DNA of 41,759 nucleotides from Bacteroidota bacterium (GTDB lineage: Bacteria > Bacteroidota > Ignavibacteria > SZUA-365): NCBI GenBank assembly GCA_003246455.1, contig QKAF01000141.1, positions 1-41,759 of the forward strand, read 5' to 3'. The position numbers and the translations under genes are program-made. The number at the start of each line of letters is the position of its first letter. Position 1 is the first letter of the stretch. The notes beneath the pieces were generated by a model that saw nothing but the letters and a program-made list of their open reading frames with translations, was not told the DNA's origin and searched no databases. This document shows positions 1,566 through 27,778 of the stretch, piece after piece.

Positions 1566-2155
1566 ACGAGCCTCCAATGGGTTAAAAGCTATAGAAATTC
1601 GTAAAGCTCAGTTTCATCGAGAGTAGCGAGATCATGCGAAACAGCTGCATGAGGGGTAAAAAGACCGGACAGAACGGAGGTCGTTCTGCCACGGTAGACA
1701 CGAATTCATGGAAATCGTTACGTCCACCGGAGCATCTGGCCGAGCAGCGCGCAAGCCGCACCGCTGCGTCGACGTACAATTCAATGGGTAATGCTCGCGA
1801 GAGGGGGAAAAAACGCTCACAAATCCTGCATTCGTACCTGTGAATCAATGGTGGCAGTGACCGAGGGCGGGACGCGCAAACCTGCGAAAATCCCGCGAAA
1901 AAACACCGTAAATGACTCGTCGGGTCAGCGAGTCAGATTATCGTTATAATATCAGATTTTCCAATCTGTTTTCCAAGCCGTCAATTCGCCGTTGCGGGAA
2001 GTTTTTCACGAATTCTGAGAACCGGGGCCGGAAGGGACTATAACGTCAAAGTAATAAAGAATTTGATGTTATCATAGCAGAGAGCGCGACTGCAGATTTC
2101 ATGCGGATTTTGTATGTTCCGTTCTGGACGTCTGTACTCCGATAAAGGTCCTACG
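1566..2155. other. 590-bp divergent intergenic region between TonB receptor and cstA
   Basis: Neither strand holds a convincing gene: the short open frames are arginine-, serine- and cysteine-rich and have no family resemblance. The right half (about 1890-2110) is clearly more AT-rich than the flanking genes, as expected for a promoter region. It contains a hairpin at 1670-1688 (arms CAGAACG/CGTTCTG), an inverted repeat at 1953-1968 (CAGATT/AATCTG) and a long-armed inverted repeat at 2040-2072. Promoters for both divergent genes should lie here, but I cannot place them precisely. Confidence 0.6.
2040..2072. promoter_or_regulatory. Long-armed inverted repeat upstream of cstA (candidate operator)
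   Basis: The arms are ATAACGTCAAA (2040-2050) and TTTGATGTTAT (2062-2072). They match at 10 of 11 positions and are separated by 11 bases. The repeat lies about 84 bases before the cstA start codon and has no T-run, so it does not look like a terminator. Its symmetry fits a dimeric regulator binding site. The regulator is unknown. Confidence 0.4.
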
Positions 2156-3901
2156 ATGAATGCTCTCCTGATCATGCTGCTTTCGTTCTCGGGTTACCTC
2201 CTGATGTATCGTCTCTACGGCAGGTATATCGGCCGGCGGATTTTCGCCATCACCGACGAGAATATCGCCCCGTCGGTGGAACTGGAGGACGGCGTGGACT
2301 ATGTCCCCACCCGGAAAGAGATCATATTCGGACATCATTTCACGTCCATCGCGGGAACGGGCCCCATCGTCGGCCCGGCCATCGCCATCATCTGGGGCTG
2401 GATCCCGGCCCTCCTGTGGGTATTCGTCGGAAGCATCATGATGGGTGCGGTGCACGACCTCGGCGCGCTGATCATCTCCATGCGCAACAAGGGCAAGTCG
2501 ATCTCGGATTACACCGCCAAGTATATCAACGGGCGCTCGCGCATCTTCTTTTTCATCATCGTGTTTCTCGAACTCTGGATCGTCATCGCCATTTTCGGCA
2601 TGGTCATCGCCATCATTTTCAGCATGTTCCCCACCTCGGTCGTGCCGGTGTGGCTGCAGATTCCGATTGCCGTCGCTCTCGGGGTGCTTCTCTACAAGCG
2701 CGGCGGGAATTTCGGCCTCTGGTCGCTTGTCGCCGTACTCCTGATGTACGCCACGATCGTGCTTGGCGCGTTCCTGCCTCTTGAGATGCCCACGGTGCTC
2801 GGCGTCCCCGCGACGGGCGTATGGACGATCATTCTCCTCATCTACGCCTTCGTCGCTTCCGTTCTTCCGGTTACCGTCCTCCTCCAGCCGCGCGACTTCA
2901 TCAACGCCTATCAGCTCGTGATCGCCATGCTGCTGCTCACCGTCGGAGTCCTTTTCTCGGCGTTTTCCGGAAACCTGACGATCGTCGCACCGGCCTTCCA
3001 GGCTGCCCCCGCCGAGGCGCCCCCGCTCTGGCCCTTCCTCTTCATAACGATCGCGTGCGGCGCGATCTCGGGGTTCCATGCGCTGGTGTCATCCGGGACC
3101 TCGGCCAAACAGGTCCGCAGGGAAAGCGACTCCCTGTTCGTCGGTTATGGTTCCATGCTCGTCGAAGGCGCGCTCGCCACGCTGGTGATCCTCGCAGTCG
3201 CCGCGGGAATCGGCATGGGCTACACCAGCGCGAGCGGCGAGTACCTGACCGGCGTCGCGGCGTGGACACAGCAGTATTCATCCTGGGCTGCGGCCTCCGG
3301 AATGGGCTCGAAGATCACGGCCTTCGTCAACGGGGCGTCGAACATGATCGCCGCAACCGGCGTCCCGCGCGAAATCGCGGTCGTCATCATGGGCGTGTTC
3401 GTCGCGTCATTCGCCGGCACCACCCTCGACACCGCGACGCGCATTCAGCGGTACATCGTCACCGAGCTGTTCACGGAACTCCGCCTGAACGTCTTCCAGA
3501 ACCGCTACATCGCAACGGGGTTTGTGGTCGTCACCGCAGCGCTCCTGGCCTTCGCTTCCGGTGCGAACGGCGCAGGCGCGCTCAGTCTCTGGCCGCTCTT
3601 CGGGGCCGTGAATCAGACGCTTGCCGCGCTTGCGCTGATCATCGTCACGCTGTATCTCAGACGGGACGGCGGAATGAAGTGGGTGTATGCGGGCATTCCC
3701 GCGGCGTTCATGAGCGTCATGACCATCTGGGCGGCGGTGCTCAATCAGGTGGAGTACGGCGGCTCCCACAACATTCTCCTGCAGGTGATCAACGCGGCGA
3801 TCATCCTCATCGTCCTGTGGGTGACGGTGGAGGGACTTCTGCAGTTCTTTCGCCCGGTCCCTGAACGGGCGGTCGCCGCAGAGCATGGCGGGGACGCATG
3901 A
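2156..3901 (+). CDS. cstA: CstA-family carbon starvation transporter
   Basis: This 581-residue protein consists almost entirely of transmembrane helices. Family motifs visible include the GHHFTSIAGTGPIVGPA stretch near residue 65, WGWIPALLWVFVGSIMMGAVHD just after it, GFHALVSSGTSAKQV in the middle, and FAGTTLDTATRIQRY with SLWPLFGAVNQ toward the end. CstA/BtsT proteins are inner-membrane importers for peptides or pyruvate that are induced when carbon runs low. The length matches the short CstA subgroup rather than the roughly 700-residue Escherichia coli proteins. ATG 2156 was chosen because AAAGG sits seven bases upstream; an in-frame ATG at 2114 lacks this. The stop overlaps the next start by four bases, so the downstream genes are probably translationally coupled to it. 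Confidence 0.93.
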   Translation: MNALLIMLLSFSGYLLMYRLYGRYIGRRIFAITDENIAPSVELEDGVDYVPTRKEIIFGHHFTSIAGTGPIVGPAIAIIWGWIPALLWVFVGSIMMGAVHDLGALIISMRNKGKSISDYTAKYINGRSRIFFFIIVFLELWIVIAIFGMVIAIIFSMFPTSVVPVWLQIPIAVALGVLLYKRGGNFGLWSLVAVLLMYATIVLGAFLPLEMPTVLGVPATGVWTIILLIYAFVASVLPVTVLLQPRDFINAYQLVIAMLLLTVGVLFSAFSGNLTIVAPAFQAAPAEAPPLWPFLFITIACGAISGFHALVSSGTSAKQVRRESDSLFVGYGSMLVEGALATLVILAVAAGIGMGYTSASGEYLTGVAAWTQQYSSWAAASGMGSKITAFVNGASNMIAATGVPREIAVVIMGVFVASFAGTTLDTATRIQRYIVTELFTELRLNVFQNRYIATGFVVVTAALLAFASGANGAGALSLWPLFGAVNQTLAALALIIVTLYLRRDGGMKWVYAGIPAAFMSVMTIWAAVLNQVEYGGSHNILLQVINAAIILIVLWVTVEGLLQFFRPVPERAVAAEHGGDA

Positions 3902-4371
3902 GCGGCCCTGATCGTGACACCGCGCTGGAGCAGCTGCGGGTGCATCTTCGGAAGCGCTTTCTCATCCTGCTGCTTCCCCCGGGGCTCGTGCTCGGCGGAC
4001 TCGAAGCCGCGCGCGCCGGCGGCGCTTTCACCAGCCTGCCGTACGTCGATCATCCCACGTGGGATGTGGTGCTGTTCGTCCTGGCCGCCTTCTTTTCCGT
4101 CGCCCTCCCCCTGCTCTATCGCATGCTCTTCGCCAATGCCCATCGCGACAAGACCGCGGTCGCCTTTTCCGCGTTCTACCGCTTCGAAAACAACAGCATG
4201 GTCGCCGCGCTCTTCACGCTGTGGATCGCGGTCGGCGCGTCGCTCATCGCGGTATCGGAACTCCACATGGCGGGGATTTTCATTCTCTCGCTCTACGCCT
4301 GCTACGTGTTTTACCCCTCCCGCCGCCGGCTCAATGCCGACGCGCGGGTATTTCGCGCAGGCAGGACATGA
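3898..4371 (+). CDS. Four-helix membrane protein of the cstA operon, unknown function
   Basis: This 157-residue protein has four likely membrane helices at about residues 21-37, 55-76, 100-119 and 122-140. A charged segment containing AHRDKTAVAF and YRFENNS lies between helices 2 and 3, and the tail is basic (PSRRRLN). I do not recognise a named family. It overlaps cstA and the following gene by four bases each (ATGA), so all three are almost certainly made from one mRNA. By position it could be an accessory subunit of the CstA transporter or a membrane anchor for the downstream ATPase; both ideas are inference. Confidence 0.8.
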   Translation: MSGPDRDTALEQLRVHLRKRFLILLLPPGLVLGGLEAARAGGAFTSLPYVDHPTWDVVLFVLAAFFSVALPLLYRMLFANAHRDKTAVAFSAFYRFENNSMVAALFTLWIAVGASLIAVSELHMAGIFILSLYACYVFYPSRRRLNADARVFRAGRT

Positions 4372-19360: not shown

Positions 19361-21571
19361 ATGCTACGCAAGGGTTCTCCGTCTCGCTTCCCGATCTTTC
19401 TGCTCCTGGCCGTTTTCGCTCTCACGGCGACGTCCTTCGCACAGAAGAAACCTGTGACGCTCCAGGATGTATTCATGAATCCGAAGTTTTTCGCTCCGCG
19501 TCTCGGCGCGCTCGCGTGGATGGCCGACGGCGAGCATTACACGTACATCAAAGCGGACAAAGGCGTGAAGAGCATCTGGAAGGTCGCGGCGAAATCCGGA
19601 GACGAAACGCTGCTGATCGACGGCAGCGACCTGAAATTCGCCGGAAGCGATGAACCGATCAGTTTCCAGGGCTACGAATGGTCGGAGGACCAGCGTTTCA
19701 TCGTCTTCACACTGGAGGAACATTCGATCTGGCGCCGCTCGTCTATCGGCACATACGCCGTCTACGACGTGCGCAGCAAAAAGCTGATCGCGCTTCCGGA
19801 ACATCCTGAAGGCGTGATGAACGTCAAGGTCGCTCCGGACGGCAGCAAGGCGGGATACGTGTACAAGGACAACATCTACGTGATGGACCTTGGGACGGGT
19901 GTCGAGACGCAGCTGACGAACGATGCCGCTACCGACGTGCACAACGGCCGGTTCGGCTGGGTGTACGAAGAGGAATTCAGTATCGTGGACGGTTGGCAGT
20001 GGTCACCCGACAGCCGGCACATCGCATTCTGGCAGGAAGACGAACGACAGGTCCCTGAGTTCACCATGACCGACTTCATGCCCCTGTACTATGATTTCGT
20101 CCGCATCCGCTATCCGAAGCCGGGCGAAAACAATCCTGTCGAAAAAATCGGGGTGATCGACCTCGCATCCGGCGACATCCGCTGGATGGACCTCGGCACC
20201 GATACCGACGTGTACATTCCGCGCATGCAGTGGACACGCGACCCGGGCACCCTGTGCATTTACCGGATGAATCGGCTGCAGAACCAGCTCGAACTGCTTT
20301 TCGCGGACATCGCGACAGGCAGCACCCGCGTCGTGCTGAATGAAAAGTCGGAAACCGGATGGATCGGCGTGGAAGACGGCGCATGGCTGCATTTCCTCGG
20401 CAAGAAGGACCAGTTCGTGTGGGCCTCCGAGCGTGACGGCTTCAACCACCTGTACCTGTACGACTATAAAGGACAGCTCATCCGGCAGATCACCACGGGA
20501 AAATGGGAAGTCGTCGACGTCCTCGGCATGACGCCCGACGAAAAGTCCCTGTACTACGTGTCCACGGAGATTTCCCCGCTCGAACGGCATCTCTACCGCA
20601 TCGGCATCGACGGCGACGACAAGGAGCAGCTTACCGAGGAGAACGGCTCGCATTCGTTCTCGATGAGTCCCACCTGCGAAATGTACATCGACTCCTGGTC
20701 GAGTGTGCAGCGCCCGATGCAGCGGAAACTTTTCGACGGCGACGGCGACAAACTCCGCGACATGGCCGAAATGGATGCCGCGGTGTATGACGAATATTAC
20801 TGGAGCGAAAAGGAACTGTTTACCGTCACGACGGAAGACGGCTGGTCGATCGACTGTTCGATGATGAAACCGGCGAATTTCGATCCCTCGAAGAAATACC
20901 CGGTGTTTTTCGACGTGTACGGCGGTCCGGGCACGCAGGCTGTCCGCAACAGCTGGCCGGGAACGATGCAGCAGTGGTACTGCAGCGAGGGGTTCATCGT
21001 GATCCAGGCCGACAACCGCGGCAGCGGCGCGAGAGGCACGGCGTTCAAGCATGCCGTGTACAAGCAGCTCGGCAAGTGGGAAGTGCATGACTATGTGGAA
21101 GTCGCAAAATATCTCGGCACGCTTCCGTACGTCGATGCAGGCCGTATCGGCATGTGGGGCTGGAGCTACGGCGGATACATGTCCGCGCTGACCATGCTGC
21201 TCGGTGCGGATTATTTCCATACCGCGGTCGCGATCGCGCCTGTCACGGAATGGACGTTCTACGACACCATTTACGCGGAGCGCTTCATGCAGCGCCCGGC
21301 AGACAATCCCGACGGCTACAAGGTCGGTTCCTGCCTCGAATTCGCCGACAGGCTCAAAGGCAATCTGCTCATCATCCATGGCGGACTCGACGACAACGTG
21401 CATGTGCAGAACACGATGAAATTCATCGACAATCTCGAAGAGGCCGGCAAGCAGTTCGACATGCGGATCTACCCCAACGGCAACCACGGGGTGGCTGGCG
21501 GATTCAAATCCCGTCTCGGCCTCTTCCAGTATTACATGGATTACATGAAGGAGCATCTGATCGGCGGATGA
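19361..21571 (+). CDS. Dipeptidyl peptidase IV-like S9B serine peptidase (secreted)
   Basis: This 736-residue protein has a signal peptide ending TATSFAQ (about residue 28), an eight-bladed propeller domain, and a C-terminal alpha/beta hydrolase. The catalytic triad is visible: Ser602 in GWSYGGYMS, Asp677 or Asp678 in HGGLDDNVHVQ, and His709 in NGNHGVAGG. The Glu-Glu motif that binds the substrate N-terminus is present in GWVYEEEFSIVDGWQWSPDS, which supports dipeptidyl peptidase specificity (X-Pro cleavage). AAGGAA precedes the ATG. It likely degrades peptides in the periplasm. Its stop overlaps the amidase start by four bases. Confidence 0.95.
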   Translation: MLRKGSPSRFPIFLLLAVFALTATSFAQKKPVTLQDVFMNPKFFAPRLGALAWMADGEHYTYIKADKGVKSIWKVAAKSGDETLLIDGSDLKFAGSDEPISFQGYEWSEDQRFIVFTLEEHSIWRRSSIGTYAVYDVRSKKLIALPEHPEGVMNVKVAPDGSKAGYVYKDNIYVMDLGTGVETQLTNDAATDVHNGRFGWVYEEEFSIVDGWQWSPDSRHIAFWQEDERQVPEFTMTDFMPLYYDFVRIRYPKPGENNPVEKIGVIDLASGDIRWMDLGTDTDVYIPRMQWTRDPGTLCIYRMNRLQNQLELLFADIATGSTRVVLNEKSETGWIGVEDGAWLHFLGKKDQFVWASERDGFNHLYLYDYKGQLIRQITTGKWEVVDVLGMTPDEKSLYYVSTEISPLERHLYRIGIDGDDKEQLTEENGSHSFSMSPTCEMYIDSWSSVQRPMQRKLFDGDGDKLRDMAEMDAAVYDEYYWSEKELFTVTTEDGWSIDCSMMKPANFDPSKKYPVFFDVYGGPGTQAVRNSWPGTMQQWYCSEGFIVIQADNRGSGARGTAFKHAVYKQLGKWEVHDYVEVAKYLGTLPYVDAGRIGMWGWSYGGYMSALTMLLGADYFHTAVAIAPVTEWTFYDTIYAERFMQRPADNPDGYKVGSCLEFADRLKGNLLIIHGGLDDNVHVQNTMKFIDNLEEAGKQFDMRIYPNGNHGVAGGFKSRLGLFQYYMDYMKEHLIGG

Positions 21572-22404
21572 GCGGTCTCCATCCACGTATCGTTTTCACC
21601 CTTCCGTTATTATTGCTCTGTTTCGGAGTCAGCGCCGCATCGCGTCCGGATGAACCCGGCACGGTGCGGCGCTACGCCATTTTCGGAAAGGGACAGGAGG
21701 AAGTCGTCCTTCGCGACAACAGGCTGCGCGACGCGGTGTTTTATATCGTCGGCGGTCACGGCGGCCCCGACAGCGGCGCGCGAGGCGAGCGCGACGGGAC
21801 AACGCTCTGCGAAGACGAGTACGCCTACGACGTCGGGCTGCGCCTCGCACGGAAGCTTCTGGAACACGATGCGAAAGTGTATGTCATCATTCGGGACCCG
21901 AACGACGGCATCCGTGAGGACAGCCTGCTTCTCTGCGACACCGACGAGGAGGCCTGGGGAGGAAGCGCCATCCCCGTCGGACAGCTCGACCGGCTCAAGC
22001 AGCGCACGAACATCGTCAACCGGCTTTCCCGGCACAACCGCAATATCAGGTATCAGCGCCTGATCGTCCTGCATGTCGACAGCCGACAGGAAGGCGACCG
22101 CGTGGATATCTTCTTCTATCACCATTCCTCCAGCGCCGCATCCCGGCGCACCGCCACCATTCTCCAGGAGACCATCGAGGAAAAATACCGCGCCCATCAG
22201 CCCTGGCGCGGCTACCAGGGCACTGTCGCCGCACGGGACGGTCTGTTCATGCTTCGCAGTACCCATCCCCGAACCGTCTACATCGAGCTCGGCAACATCC
22301 AGAATCCCCTCGATCAGCGTCGTTTCATCTCCGTCGATAATCGCCAGGCACTGGCAAACTGGCTGACGGAGGGCCTGCTCGAAGACTTCCGGCGCTCCCG
22401 CTGA
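21568..22404 (+). CDS. N-acetylmuramoyl-L-alanine amidase (Amidase_3-like), secreted
   Basis: This 278-residue protein has an N-terminal hydrophobic signal (TLPLLLLCFGVSAAS, cleavage near residue 25). The zinc ligands of the Amidase_3 family can be placed: His64 in GGHGGPDSGARG, Glu82 or Glu84 in CEDEYAYDVG, His169 in VLHVDSRQEG and the catalytic Glu240 in YIELGNIQNP. Such enzymes cut the bond between N-acetylmuramic acid and the stem peptide. A divergent insertion (VDIFFYHHSSSA) follows the second histidine. Overlap with the DPP-IV gene (ATGA) indicates co-translation. Confidence 0.85.
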   Translation: MSGLHPRIVFTLPLLLLCFGVSAASRPDEPGTVRRYAIFGKGQEEVVLRDNRLRDAVFYIVGGHGGPDSGARGERDGTTLCEDEYAYDVGLRLARKLLEHDAKVYVIIRDPNDGIREDSLLLCDTDEEAWGGSAIPVGQLDRLKQRTNIVNRLSRHNRNIRYQRLIVLHVDSRQEGDRVDIFFYHHSSSAASRRTATILQETIEEKYRAHQPWRGYQGTVAARDGLFMLRSTHPRTVYIELGNIQNPLDQRRFISVDNRQALANWLTEGLLEDFRRSR

Positions 22405-22451: not shown

Positions 22452-22458
22452 TATCTTG
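22452..22458 (+). promoter_or_regulatory. Candidate -7 promoter element TATCTTG for the ECF sigma gene
   Basis: TATCTTG ends 19 bases before GTG 22478, in the 73-base gap after the amidase gene. It matches the TAnnTTG element seen elsewhere in the window. No convincing -33 element is visible. Confidence 0.4.
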
Positions 22459-22477
22459 CAACAAAGTACACACTCAC

Positions 22478-23128
22478 GTGTCTCTTTCGTATGCGGTCAC
22501 GGATTCGTTGAACCAAAGGACCCATGTATTGCGATTGCGCGGCAGCCATAAATCACCGGCTCGACTGACGGAATGCACCGATCTCGAACTCTATCTGAAG
22601 GTCCGGGAAGGCGGATCGGTCGGGGAGTCGGCCTTCAGGGAGCTTTACGGCCGACTCGCGGGAAATCTCTATGCGTATTGCCGCTGCCTGGCCTGGAGGC
22701 GTGAGGAGAGCGACGATCTGTTCCAGGAGGCGATCACTCGTCTCTACGAAGGAGCGCTGCAGGGCCGCGAGGTCAGTAACGTCGCGGGGTACGTCATAAA
22801 AATTGCCCGCAACCTCTATCTCAATATGCAGCGCGACCGCAAACCCGTCATCAGCATCGAGCACGACACCCTCGCGGTTGCCGTTCCTTCGCATGAAAAA
22901 ACGGAGATGCTCGAGCTGATTCACATGGCCATGGAACTGCTTCCGGAAGATTACCGGGAAGCGTTTTTCCTGCGTGAGTTCGCCGATATGCCGTATGAGG
23001 AAATCGCGAAAGTCATGAATCTGACGAATGTCAACGTGCGCATCCGCGTCACCCGCGCGCGTGAGAAGATCCGCAAGATCCTCGAACCCTACATTGCCGA
23101 ATACGAACACGAACAGAAGAAACAGTGA
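22478..23128 (+). CDS. ECF-type RNA polymerase sigma factor
   Basis: This protein of up to 216 residues has sigma region 2 (about 55-125; AFRELYGRLAGNLYAYCR, ESDDLFQEAITRLYEG, YVIKIARNLYLNMQRDRKP) and region 4 (about 150-205; LLPEDYREAFFLREFADMPY and EEIAKVMNLTNVNVRIRVTRARE). It has no region 1 or 3, as in ECF factors. The start is uncertain: GTG 22478 gives the longest form, and shorter TTG starts are possible after AAAGGA near 22517. It overlaps the next gene by four bases (GTGA), which is the normal arrangement for a sigma factor and its anti-sigma partner. Confidence 0.9.
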   Translation: MSLSYAVTDSLNQRTHVLRLRGSHKSPARLTECTDLELYLKVREGGSVGESAFRELYGRLAGNLYAYCRCLAWRREESDDLFQEAITRLYEGALQGREVSNVAGYVIKIARNLYLNMQRDRKPVISIEHDTLAVAVPSHEKTEMLELIHMAMELLPEDYREAFFLREFADMPYEEIAKVMNLTNVNVRIRVTRAREKIRKILEPYIAEYEHEQKKQ

Positions 23129-24570
23129 GTACTGTCATGTACACCGAACAAAGCACCCCAAACGAACTGCTGCATGCGTACATCGATGCTGAGCTTTCTC
23201 CGGAACTCGAGCAGCAGTTCTTTTCCATGCTGGCGTCGGACGGCGAATTACGGACGCGTCTGCGCCAGCTGCGCGGATTGCGTACCGAGGCGAGACGTTT
23301 CGGCGCCGTTGCCGCACCACCGCCGGAACTGACGGGCGCGGTGTTTTCGCAGCTCGGCTTTCAGACCGGTCCCGCGCTCCGTCCGTCGCACCTGGTCGGC
23401 GCCGCCCTCCTCCTGCGCAACGCCTGGGCTCCGCTGGCATCCGCGGCGGCCGCGGCTTTCCTCACGGCGACCATCATTTTCGGACTGCAGGGAACGCCAT
23501 CCGGGGACGGGATCCCCACCCTCGCGGATCGGCAGTCGAACACCCGGATCGAAGCTCAATCCGATACCCGGGCGTCGGATCGCTCCTCGACCCGCGACCG
23601 TCAGTCTGATGCCGGGGAGGCACGTGCGACTGCAACTTCGCAGTCTCCGGCAAACGTGACGGCTCCCGCACCCCGTATGCGTGCCGCCGCGGCCGTTGAT
23701 CCTTCTTTCGCAATGCAGGACGCAGCTGAAACACGCGTCGCACAGGCACCGCCTGTCACGGATGGCGCGAATTCCGCTGCATCGGGAACGGATTTCGCCG
23801 CGAGAACGGAGGAAGAGGCCTCTGGTCGCAATACTGACGAGACTCTTCCCACGACGCAGACCTCCGGAGAACTTCCCACCCTTGCCGCAAATGCGCAGCC
23901 CGATGCAGCCATCCCCTTCAGCGATGGCGTTTCCGTGTCCGGGAGCGGCGGTGTGACGCCTCCGTCCTCCGTCCGATCCGTCCCGGGCGAAGACGCCACC
24001 GTCCTCGCACAGCAGGGATTCCCCGGACAGGATGCCGTCGATACGCGCGGGTACTTCCCGGGTCTCAGCCGCGAACCCGTGCTGAGTTTCCTCTCCATCG
24101 AACTCCGTGGCGTCTCCGCGGCTTCCTTCCCTGCCGTGACGATCGGAACCCGATCGAATCCGTGGATGGAAAACATGGCGGCCGCCGTCTACTACACCGA
24201 CGAGCAGAACGACTTTGGACTGGAATACGGGCAGGAGCCCTTCTCACAGCATTATCACGGCGTCGAGTTCGGCAAGCAGGTCACGTACGAGCAGAACCTG
24301 CTTACCTCGTGGCTGCTGCTCGGATACCGCCACCGCTTCGCGCCCATGATTGCCTACGGATCCATCGAGCCGTACATCACCACGAGCTTCGGTGCGACAA
24401 TTCAGGCCTGGCCCCTTGCGCGCGCAGGGTTCGGACTGATGTACATGCCGGATCGACGCGTGCGTTTCCATCTCGGACTCGAAGGTTCCCTTCTCGCGTA
24501 TCCGTACCAGAATACCTGGTTCACCTCGAAACGCGCCGGCCTGACCTACGGCATTTCCCTTCTTCTCTGA
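23125..24570 (+). CDS. Anti-sigma-like transmembrane protein with barrel-like C-terminal domain
   Basis: This 481-residue protein starts with a helical region (1-60; ELLHAYIDAELSPELEQQFF) that resembles anti-sigma domains but lacks the zinc-binding His-Cys-Cys motif. One membrane helix lies at about 100-121 (WAPLASAAAAAFLTATIIFG). A long Ala/Ser/Thr/Asp-rich linker (about 125-320) follows. The C-terminal 155 residues look like outer-membrane beta-strands (SFLSIELRGVSAASFPAV, NLLTSWLLLGYRHRFAPM, VRFHLGLEGSLLAYPY, ending GISLLL). Overlap with the ECF sigma gene supports an anti-sigma role. The start may instead be ATG 23137. The barrel assignment is from strand pattern only. Confidence 0.78.
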   Translation: MSTVMYTEQSTPNELLHAYIDAELSPELEQQFFSMLASDGELRTRLRQLRGLRTEARRFGAVAAPPPELTGAVFSQLGFQTGPALRPSHLVGAALLLRNAWAPLASAAAAAFLTATIIFGLQGTPSGDGIPTLADRQSNTRIEAQSDTRASDRSSTRDRQSDAGEARATATSQSPANVTAPAPRMRAAAAVDPSFAMQDAAETRVAQAPPVTDGANSAASGTDFAARTEEEASGRNTDETLPTTQTSGELPTLAANAQPDAAIPFSDGVSVSGSGGVTPPSSVRSVPGEDATVLAQQGFPGQDAVDTRGYFPGLSREPVLSFLSIELRGVSAASFPAVTIGTRSNPWMENMAAAVYYTDEQNDFGLEYGQEPFSQHYHGVEFGKQVTYEQNLLTSWLLLGYRHRFAPMIAYGSIEPYITTSFGATIQAWPLARAGFGLMYMPDRRVRFHLGLEGSLLAYPYQNTWFTSKRAGLTYGISLLL

Positions 24571-24587: not shown

Positions 24588-25826
24588 ATGACGCTGAGTA
24601 AACAAGGCATCGTCCTCACTCTTCTCGCAGCCGCGTTCCTGGCCGCCTGCGTATCGCCGACCGACCCGGATACGCCGCGCCGCCGGATTTATGAGCGCAC
24701 CCCGTACTTTCTCCGTGCGGTGAATATGAGCGCACAGGACCAGGGCTTCGACGTGAAACAGCTCAGCGACAGCGGTTTTGTCATCGTCGGACATGCGTAC
24801 TCGCCGCACATGGGTTCGCTCGATGTGCTGCTGATCCGTACGGATCCGGACGGCAATACGCTCTGGACGAAAACCTTCGGCGGCATATACGCGGATGAGG
24901 GCTACTCCGTCGTGGAGGCCCCCGACGGGGGATTTCTCATTGCCGGGACCACCCTGTCGTTTACCAACGGGCATACCGACATCTGGCTCATCCGCACCGA
25001 GGCCAACGGCGCCCTGCGCTGGTATCGCAATTACGGCGGGACGGGCACCGATTATTTCGGCAAGGTGATCGCATGCAGTACCGGCGGGTTTCTCATGACC
25101 GGTTCGATCGAGGATCCCATCGCCGGGAACTCCATGACGCTCGTGACCCGCCTCGACGAGGTCGGCGGTATTACCTGGGATTTCACCCTCGGCGGCAGCC
25201 AGCGCGATCTCGGCTCCGCGGTGATTGAAAAGGAAGACGGCAGTTTCCTCGTCGGCTGCACCACCGAGTATCGCGGGTACGGAAAATCCCGGATCCGCCT
25301 GTTCACCCTCACCGCGCGCGGGGACCTCGACACGACCGGCTTCGGATGGGAGAGTGAAATGATGACCACGGAGAGCAAGGGCATAGCGGATTTCGCCGTG
25401 TCCCGCTTCGGCACCTACGGCATCATCGGCGATGTCAACCCGAAACTCAATGTCACCAACATGCTGTTTATCACGCTGGATCAGAACGGCGAGGGCTACC
25501 AGGAGCAGATCCTCGAGAGGAACGCGCTCGGCAAGGCGATCGAAGCGACTCCGGACGGAGGCTTCATCGTCTGCGGCTACACGGATCCCTATGGCGGTGA
25601 AGGCAGCGATATCATCCTCATCAAGCTGGACGCAAACGGGACGGAAGAATGGCGCAAAACCATCGGAGGCCCCCATCTCGACCGCGCCTTCGGTCTCGCC
25701 AATACGCTCGAAGGCGGGTTCATTCTCACCGGGGTTACCGGTTCCTATGGGGAACTGACCGAGGGATCGACCAACCTCCTGCTTTTGAAGACGGATGCGG
25801 ACGGACATTATGAGGACATCCTCTGA
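24588..25826 (+). CDS. Lipoprotein with repeated beta-propeller-like blades
   Basis: This 412-residue protein has a lipobox LAAC (Cys21). After it come at least six repeats of the pattern DGGF-V/I-I-GxT followed by D-I/V-x-LI-(R/K)-TDxxGxxxWxxxxGG. Examples are GFVIVGHAYS, DVLLIRTDPDGNTLWTKTFGG, GGFLIAGTTLS, DIWLIRTEANGALRWYRNYGG and GGFIVCGYTD. Such repeats are common in surface or periplasmic proteins of Bacteroidota, but the function is unknown. GGAG lies seven bases before ATG 24588 and the gap to the anti-sigma gene is 17 bases, so it is probably part of the sigma operon. Confidence 0.85.
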   Translation: MTLSKQGIVLTLLAAAFLAACVSPTDPDTPRRRIYERTPYFLRAVNMSAQDQGFDVKQLSDSGFVIVGHAYSPHMGSLDVLLIRTDPDGNTLWTKTFGGIYADEGYSVVEAPDGGFLIAGTTLSFTNGHTDIWLIRTEANGALRWYRNYGGTGTDYFGKVIACSTGGFLMTGSIEDPIAGNSMTLVTRLDEVGGITWDFTLGGSQRDLGSAVIEKEDGSFLVGCTTEYRGYGKSRIRLFTLTARGDLDTTGFGWESEMMTTESKGIADFAVSRFGTYGIIGDVNPKLNVTNMLFITLDQNGEGYQEQILERNALGKAIEATPDGGFIVCGYTDPYGGEGSDIILIKLDANGTEEWRKTIGGPHLDRAFGLANTLEGGFILTGVTGSYGELTEGSTNLLLLKTDADGHYEDIL

Positions 25827-25871: not shown

Positions 25872-26705
25872 ATGAATTCATCTGCCGACAGCGCATTCTC
25901 TCAGCTCTCCGTCTCGATCATCGCGGGGAGCGAGGAACATAACATCCGCGACTGCCTCGCCTCGGTCTCGTTCGCCGGAGAAATCGTCGTTGTATGCTCC
26001 CAGCAGGACGACGCGACGATGGAGATCGCGCGCGAATTCACCGACCGCGTGCTGTACCGGCCGTTCGAAGGCTATGCTTCCCAGAAGGCCTTTGCGCTGG
26101 CGGAATGCACGGGCGCATGGGTGCTGAGCCTGGATGCCGACGAGCGCGTTTCGGAAGAACTTCGCAGGGAAATACGCGAAGTGCTCGGCGCCGACGGCCC
26201 CCTCGACGGATATTACGTTCCGCGTCGAAATCACTTTCACGGCCGCTGGATCCGGCACGGCGGATGGTATCCCGACCATCAGCTGCGCCTCTTCCGCCGC
26301 GAGCGGACGCGGGTGACCGAACGTCTCGTGCATGAAGGGTTTGACGTCGATGGCAGCCGCGGGCACCTCCGCGGCCACTTGCTGCATTACACCCTGCCGC
26401 GAGTCCGCCACATGCTGAAGAAGAATCTCGATTACGCGCTCTACGAAGCGCGGGAGAAGCGCGGCCGGCGGCGCATCACGGCTCTCGATTTCCTGCTCCG
26501 CCCCCCGCTGGAGTTCCTGAAAAAGTACGTTTTCCAGCGAGCGTTCCTCGACGGCTGGGAGGGATTCATCATCTCAGTCATCCACGCATCGAACAAACGG
26601 CAGATGCTGATCTACCTGTGGGAGCTGCAGTACCGCGGCGGCGATGGCGCGGGATCGGAAGAGGACCGCGGTTCGACGGAGAAACGGAGCGGAGACCGCG
26701 CGTGA
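25872..26705 (+). CDS. Family 2 glycosyltransferase (WaaE/KdtX-like)
   Basis: This 277-residue protein has the GT2 fold: SVSIIAGSEEHNIRDCLASV at the N-terminus, the metal-binding motif LSLDADERVSEELR (DAD at about 92-94), and HGGWYPDHQLRLFRR. The last is typical of lipopolysaccharide core glucosyltransferases related to WaaE. It has no signal peptide and is probably a peripheral inner-membrane enzyme, with the hydrophobic C-terminal segment AFLDGWEGFIISVIHA. It overlaps the GT9 gene by four bases (GTGA), so the two likely act on the same glycan. Confidence 0.9.
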   Translation: MNSSADSAFSQLSVSIIAGSEEHNIRDCLASVSFAGEIVVVCSQQDDATMEIAREFTDRVLYRPFEGYASQKAFALAECTGAWVLSLDADERVSEELRREIREVLGADGPLDGYYVPRRNHFHGRWIRHGGWYPDHQLRLFRRERTRVTERLVHEGFDVDGSRGHLRGHLLHYTLPRVRHMLKKNLDYALYEAREKRGRRRITALDFLLRPPLEFLKKYVFQRAFLDGWEGFIISVIHASNKRQMLIYLWELQYRGGDGAGSEEDRGSTEKRSGDRA

Positions 26706-27778
26706 AAGGGGCGAGTTCCGGACCTTCCGCCGCACAGCGCCGGCGCCACCGCCGCATCCTCGTCGTGCGCCCTGATCGCATCGGCGACGTCACGCTGGCG
26801 ACCCCGGTGATCCGCGCACTGCGTGAAGGCTTTCCCGATGCATACCTCGCGGCGCTCGTCCGCCCGGCGACCGAGCCGGTCCTCCGCGGCAGCCCGCATC
26901 TCGACGCCATCCTCGTCGACGACTGGGAACAGACCCATGCCGGACGTGCGGGTTTCTTCGACCGTCTGCGCATGCTGCGACGCCACCGTTTCGATACCGC
27001 GCTGATGCTCCTGCCCACTGAACGGCACGCATGGATGACCGCGCTTGCGGGCATTCGCACGCGCATCGGCGTGGGAACAAAACTCTATCAGATCCTCACT
27101 TTCGCACGCAGTGTGAGCCGCAGGAAGTACATTCCGCTGCGCCATGAAGCGGACTACTGCCTGGACCTCGCCCGGGCGATCGGGGTTCGTTCGGACGATC
27201 TCCGCACCGAAGCGTTCCTGACCGACGCCGAGCGCTCCGCCGCCCGCGAACGGCTGACGGCCGCGGGTCGCGTGATCGGCAGGCCGCTGATTTCCATTCA
27301 TCCCGAAAGCGGGCGCTCCGCGCCGAACTGGACGCTCGATATCTATGTCCGGTTCATCGAACGCCTGCTGGAAGTGATGCCCGATGTGCAGGTGCTCCTG
27401 AACATCACCCCCGGCAACCATGACGCCCGCGCGGCCTGCGCGCCGCTTCGGGAACGCGGGGTCATATTCCCCGATGCGTCGAACGACCTTCGCATGCTGA
27501 TGGGAATGATCGCGGAAGCCGATGTGGTCGTCTCCGCAAGTACGGGGCCGATGCATCTTGCCGCCGCGCTGGGGACCCCGACGGTGAGCCTCTTCTGTCC
27601 CCTCACCGCATGTTCCCCGAAACTCTGGGGACCGCAGGGGAACCGCGCCGTCACGCTGCTCCCCCCCGACGATTATTGCCAGACACGCTGTCCGGGGGAT
27701 CCGCATGTCTGTACGCTCGAGGGCGGCATTCTTCCCGAAGACCTCATCCCCGCCATTCGCGCGATGCTTCACCGATAA
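26702..27778 (+). CDS. Family 9 glycosyltransferase (heptosyltransferase-like)
   Basis: This 358-residue protein starts at GTG 26702 inside the stop of the GT2 gene. The N-terminal RPDRIGDVTLATPVIRALRE and C-terminal SASTGPMHLAAALGTPTVSLFCP are the signature ends of ADP-heptose:LPS heptosyltransferases. SIHPESGRSAPNWTLDIYVRF contributes to the donor site. A cysteine-bearing DYCQTRCPGDPHVCTLEGG segment near the end is often seen in this family. It should extend the lipopolysaccharide core. The acceptor and sugar cannot be determined. A terminator follows immediately. Confidence 0.92.
   Translation: MKGASSGPSAAQRRRHRRILVVRPDRIGDVTLATPVIRALREGFPDAYLAALVRPATEPVLRGSPHLDAILVDDWEQTHAGRAGFFDRLRMLRRHRFDTALMLLPTERHAWMTALAGIRTRIGVGTKLYQILTFARSVSRRKYIPLRHEADYCLDLARAIGVRSDDLRTEAFLTDAERSAARERLTAAGRVIGRPLISIHPESGRSAPNWTLDIYVRFIERLLEVMPDVQVLLNITPGNHDARAACAPLRERGVIFPDASNDLRMLMGMIAEADVVVSASTGPMHLAAALGTPTVSLFCPLTACSPKLWGPQGNRAVTLLPPDDYCQTRCPGDPHVCTLEGGILPEDLIPAIRAMLHR

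Follow-up and report, generated by a model that had tools for sequence, protein, structure and literature searches.

How might a change at the outer membrane reach an ECF sigma factor in the cytoplasm, and could a single polypeptide carry it there? This question is raised by a gene at 23125–24570 of the window, the term used here for the whole stretch of 41,759 nucleotides from an Ignavibacteria genome that was analyzed; all window features described below lie on its forward strand. The initial annotation of the gene proposed an anti-sigma-like protein that overlaps an ECF sigma gene, lacks a zinc motif, has one membrane helix and continues through a nearly 200-residue low-complexity linker into a possible C-terminal outer-membrane barrel. 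It also stated that no standard family with this layout was known. Every element of the described layout is borne out by the analyses below, while the statement on novelty is not. The reading favored here, with a probability of roughly 0.6 for the whole, is that the sigma factor, the barrel-tethered anti-sigma factor and a lipoprotein encoded next to them act together as a surface sensor.

The frame encodes 481 amino acids, is open throughout, and starts with GTG (an alternative ATG start lies at 23137). Its first codon overlaps the stop codon of the sigma factor ORF, listed at 22478–23128, the product of which matches Pfam Sigma70_r2 and Sigma70_r4_2. A full-length AlphaFold model of the anti-sigma protein consists of five N-terminal helices, an unstructured linker and eight C-terminal strands. 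Some 90 residues at the N-terminus make up a helical, anti-sigma-like domain, placed at residues 11–78 (23155–23358), in which four helices are modeled and pLDDT is about 85 across residues 11–50. When a profile of residues 1–100 was compared with the PDB, the best four matches included RsiW (E = 0.0056), DdvA (0.12) and RseA (0.5), and weak Pfam matches among 21 family members were to RseA_N (four) and zf-HC2 (eleven). Together, the model helices and the profile and Pfam matches point to a cytoplasmic, class I anti-sigma domain related to those of RsiW and RseA. The protein differs from the RsiW, RseA and DdvA type in two respects. First, the zinc-binding anti-sigma (ZAS) motif HxxxCxxC is absent from the N-terminal 90 residues of all 50 family members, and the whole 481-residue protein contains no cysteine. 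Second, the short periplasmic domain of that type is replaced by a linker and an outer-membrane-type barrel. Searches of the full protein against Pfam and NCBIfam returned nothing that reached cut-off.

Hydropathy analysis reveals only one hydrophobic helix, at residues 103–121 (23431–23487; maximum 1.81), which lies within a modeled helix of residues 91–122. It is followed by a predicted disordered periplasmic linker at residues 123–312 (23491–24060), about 190 residues of low-complexity sequence with pLDDT of 30–40, of which 86% are A, T, S, P, G, D, E, Q, N, R or K. Linkers of the 50 members range from 87 to 243 residues, a length that, when extended, is enough to span a periplasm. The C-terminal part, residues 322–481 (24088–24567), is assigned as an eight-stranded outer-membrane-type barrel based on AlphaFold, Foldseek and strand amphipathicity. 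When the last 169 residues were modeled together with 11 homologues (an alignment of 12 sequences), eight strands of 8–21 residues were predicted across about residues 322–480, with a pLDDT of 82 and a pTM of 0.74, and no small globular domain appeared. Amphipathicity of the strands exceeded that of shuffled sequences both for the window protein alone (P = 0.024) and for the family profile (P = 0.002), and the C-terminal residue is Phe in 32 of the 50 members. A search of PDB sequences with the barrel profile gave no match. The predicted structure and strand pattern are thus those of eight amphipathic transmembrane strands that close at the C-terminus.

A misread stop that hides a separate C-terminal gene is ruled out by the 50 homologues, all from a class of Ignavibacteria-like bacteria, in which the whole fusion occupies one uninterrupted frame. 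(NCBI places Ignavibacteria in the Ignavibacteriota.) With the single protein as a query, the fusion was found in 28 of 61 relatives, and in a sample of 395 genomes, N- and C-terminal matches share one frame in many families of that class. Every homologous locus whose sequence extends far enough has a sigma gene immediately upstream. Several paralogues of the barrel anti-sigma gene occur in the window's own genome and at least eight in one relative, and no plasmid-borne homologues were found. Among the ECF loci of the class to which genome G221 belongs, no barrel anti-sigma genes were seen. Comparison with the nearest orthologue yields dN/dS values of 0.13 (anti-sigma domain) and 0.11 (barrel); the linker retains 43% identity and its synonymous change is saturated. 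These values indicate purifying selection on both ends of the protein, with a linker that is free to change. Given the low dN/dS at both ends, and the recurrence of the fusion with an upstream sigma gene in dozens of genomes, the arrangement is more than chance.

Two loci in other classes, L224 (296–3189) and L227 (2107–4384), may represent unfused versions, with an anti-sigma gene followed immediately by a separate barrel gene that encodes a signal peptide of its own; the upstream sigma gene is confirmed for L224 only. Perhaps such an arrangement was the forerunner of the fusion.

The same data bear on how the sigma factor would be released. Proteolysis releases most membrane anti-sigma factors, and a fast-evolving, exposed linker would be easily cut. 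It is therefore conceivable that the barrel is an anchor only, and that signaling works by regulated cleavage within the linker or helix, the classical route of the RseA or FecR systems. Two observations make this the less probable account, although it is the strongest of the competitors. No conserved, cleavage-like motif was found in the linker, and no part of the protein is as conserved as the barrel, a degree of conservation beyond what an anchor would need.

The most informative new feature of the locus is a gene that the initial annotation missed. At 24588–25826, directly behind the anti-sigma gene, lies a lipoprotein gene with the lipobox LAAC and a beta-propeller-like body (DUF5122). 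A conserved tail, CVSPTDPDTPR (24648–24680), directly follows its signal peptide. Of 53 barrel anti-sigma genes, 50 have such a lipoprotein gene directly behind them, the signal peptide of which starts within about 170 bases. In this count, an earlier cysteine was scored for L070 and L054, with the tail a few residues further on, and L071 was scored in the wrong frame, the right frame being established separately. The residues behind the lipid cysteine follow the pattern C-x-S-P-[LT]-D-x-D-[TA]-P-R, while the bodies are unlike each other: a beta-propeller in the window, a VWA domain in a paralogous operon and Ig-like domains in others. Across 944 pairs, tails are 29% identical versus 8% for the stretches downstream of them.

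Specificity of the tail was assessed with a degenerate DNA pattern that ignores position. Twelve family genomes yielded 11 matches (control, 0), and 11 of 11 lie 70–190 bases behind a barrel anti-sigma gene. A looser pattern produced 32 matches in 395 genomes; 13 of these matches are free of stop codons and carry Ser as the third residue. A lipoprotein signal peptide is present in 12 of the 13, every one of which (12/12) is located behind a barrel anti-sigma gene, while the thirteenth lacks a signal peptide. Each of the remaining matches is without the serine or is interrupted by a stop, an assessment that for seven to nine of them comes from the listed sequence alone. Within this blind search of 395 genomes, no real lipoprotein with the tail was found away from barrel anti-sigma genes.

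These counts also weigh on a second alternative, in which the tail is an export or sorting signal and the lipoprotein a regulated surface product rather than part of a sensor. The lipoprotein export signal of Bacteroidetes is located directly behind the lipid cysteine, exactly where the tail sits, and the tail has acidic residues. A general signal, however, would be expected in many lipoproteins encoded by the same genomes, whereas all 11 family matches and every real lipoprotein matched in the larger sample stand behind barrel anti-sigma genes, and the tail stays the same while the bodies vary. Confinement of the tail to these operons speaks against a general role in sorting, and this alternative is considered unlikely.

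Other tails and operons show further diversity. For example, a paralogous operon seen in L072–L076 (e.g., L072, 202–3959) encodes a sigma factor, a barrel anti-sigma factor, a VWA lipoprotein with the tail CDSPLDVxTPRNR, and, last, another secreted protein, about 405 residues long. Family f17 and part of family f8 have other tails. In three f17 loci (L025, L047 and L063), the lipoprotein behind the barrel anti-sigma gene has a conserved tail of another kind, CADPxxxTxPxVENPKP, which may go with a different type of barrel.

The sigma gene itself is preceded by a conserved ECF-type promoter, TGCAACAA-N12-CGTGTCT, at 22457–22483. Since the listed GTG start of the sigma ORF falls within this promoter, and with orthologues also taken into account, the real start is probably at 22508–22535. 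Among ECF groups, the best NCBIfam matches of the sigma factor are NF058625 and TIGR02985, both below their cut-offs. The motif TG[AC]AACAA-N12-[CT]GTGTC precedes the sigma gene in every orthologue for which that stretch is available. The spacing from AACAA to GTGTC before the gene is exactly 13 bases at seven loci (the window and six orthologues), and a further search added an eighth locus, in genome G008. Eight of ten exact matches to the promoter in the 12 family genomes sit at the sigma operon. Both the conserved motif and this distribution fit autoregulation, and the operon is presumed to be autoregulated. Outside the sigma operon, matches to the promoter were rare and close to background, and a wide regulon is accordingly not claimed. 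In two genera (L113 and L115), orthologous secreted proteins are preceded, at a similar distance, by a promoter like that of the sigma operon, TGTAACAA-N12-[CT]GTGTCT; these proteins are a possible second target of the sigma factor.

Downstream of the lipoprotein gene lie a family 2 glycosyltransferase (25872–26705) and a family 9, heptosyltransferase-like glycosyltransferase (26618–27778), each conserved in place in the window's family. As far as the sequence reaches, the order sigma, anti-sigma, propeller lipoprotein, family 2 and family 9 glycosyltransferase is kept in five loci. From gene order and short gaps, both lipopolysaccharide-type glycosyltransferases are probably on the sigma operon transcript. 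Upstream of the sigma gene (19361–22404), a dipeptidyl-peptidase IV-like gene and an Amidase_3 gene are also conserved in place in relatives.

The claim that no standard family has this layout is refuted by two published accounts of the same layout. Evans et al. (PMC9308784, 2022) reported, for Bacteroides and Phocaeicola, an "unusual" anti-sigma factor that ends in an outer-membrane barrel; attack on the envelope induces the sigma/anti-sigma pair and lengthens the O-antigen. In both Phocaeicola vulgatus (M0N98_03761/03760) and the EcfO pair of B. fragilis, a sigma gene is followed by one for a large anti-sigma factor with a predicted periplasm-spanning layout and C-terminal outer-membrane barrel, and the envelope stress response changes lipopolysaccharide (PMC9308784). 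These pairs belong to another lineage and are likened to the window locus by their published description. Pardue et al. (PMC13088901, 2026), who cite a 2024 PNAS paper, named the Dma family and listed its four parts. Dma1/Das1 and Dma2/Das2 of Bacteroides thetaiotaomicron share with the window locus an anti-sigma domain, one helix, a long disordered tether and a C-terminal barrel, encoded directly beside an ECF sigma gene. Deletion of dma2 frees Das2 and raises its own operon, which is among the most induced targets of Dma2/Das2 (PMC13088901).

Is the window protein then simply a Dma of Bacteroidota, homologous to Dma1 and Dma2, with the lipoprotein an unrelated, co-regulated gene? The identical domain order and adjacent ECF sigma gene favor this possibility, and the Dma2 operon also has a downstream gene of unknown function, BT_1557 (PMC13088901). 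Sequence comparison points the other way. The comparison set comprised two loci of Dma layout that a search with barrel families turned up elsewhere in the phylum, rather than Bacteroides Dma1 and Dma2. One of these, L223, has a sigma gene at 1548–2096 and a 641-residue protein at 2096–4018; the other, L225, has a 600-residue frame. Both have short N-termini of the "PPPELW" type. No BLAST similarity to the window family was found (E = 0.28), and profile comparison with these two loci gave probabilities of 1.3% (N-terminal ends) and 0.5% (barrels), the Dma-layout profiles containing only three and two sequences. In a sigma factor tree, the window family and the L223/L225 factors form two separate, supported clades on long branches. 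Moreover, a conserved lipoprotein partner with a specific tail sets the window locus apart from Dma, and the tail is too specific for a chance neighbor. A Dma protein with an unrelated lipoprotein gene beside it is less probable than either of the alternatives considered above. The window protein would work like Dma, and its membership in the family is no better than a candidate one. An independent origin is suggested, not proven, since the comparison covered few sequences, from two loci other than those of Bacteroides. If the apparent lack of homology is true, the same layout arose twice. What is new here is, then, probably a different sequence family with its own matching outer-membrane lipoprotein.

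Least probable by far is a soluble periplasmic beta domain, rather than a membrane barrel, at the C-terminus. The moderate Foldseek TM-scores (0.59 to the best match, NspA) speak for it. Against it stand the listed Foldseek matches, all of them natural or designed transmembrane barrels, the length and amphipathicity of the eight modeled strands and the C-terminal Phe of most members, as described above.

Comparison with other signaling systems helps to place the proposed sensor. In FecA/FecR/FecI, as proposed for the window locus, the signal passes from an outer-membrane barrel by way of an anti-sigma factor to an ECF sigma factor. FecA, however, is a separate TonB-dependent transporter, whereas the window barrel and anti-sigma domain form one polypeptide, with no gene for a TonB receptor next to theirs. 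RcsF/OMP complexes are lipoprotein–barrel sensors of lipopolysaccharide integrity (PMC4942254). They offer a precedent: by analogy, the proposed window system would likewise relay a lipopolysaccharide signal through the outer membrane by means of a lipoprotein and a beta-barrel. The barrels joined by RcsF are ordinary porins or OmpA and the output is a phosphorelay, whereas the window barrel is fused to an anti-sigma factor and its contact with the lipoprotein is inferred.

In the surface sensor proposed here, the cytoplasmic domain would hold the ECF sigma factor, the helix would cross the inner membrane, and the disordered linker would cross the periplasm to an eight-stranded barrel in the outer membrane, which would fix the anti-sigma factor there. 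Next to its lipid anchor, the conserved tail of the lipoprotein most likely binds or threads the barrel, while the exchangeable outer domain, a beta-propeller in this case, would meet the signal. A change at the outer membrane, such as binding or loss of the lipoprotein, failure of the barrel to fold, or altered lipopolysaccharide, could then alter the anti-sigma factor and free the sigma factor. Once freed, it would transcribe its own operon, to which, in the window's family, the two lipopolysaccharide-type glycosyltransferases probably belong.

A more specific version of the favored reading can be put forward tentatively, with somewhat less than even odds. These proteins may be a second, independently evolved lineage in which each barrel has a dedicated lipoprotein, the constant tail plugging or clamping the barrel and interchangeable domains setting what is sensed. 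If so, the result would be a modular, one-step signaling line from the cell surface to a sigma factor. For cells of this class, the sensor reading would mean several such sensors in parallel, up to at least eight per genome, in each of which a single unbroken polypeptide would carry a signal from the surface to RNA polymerase. The lipoprotein tail would also offer a concrete, testable answer to the question posed by Dma, namely what an outer-membrane barrel of this kind senses.
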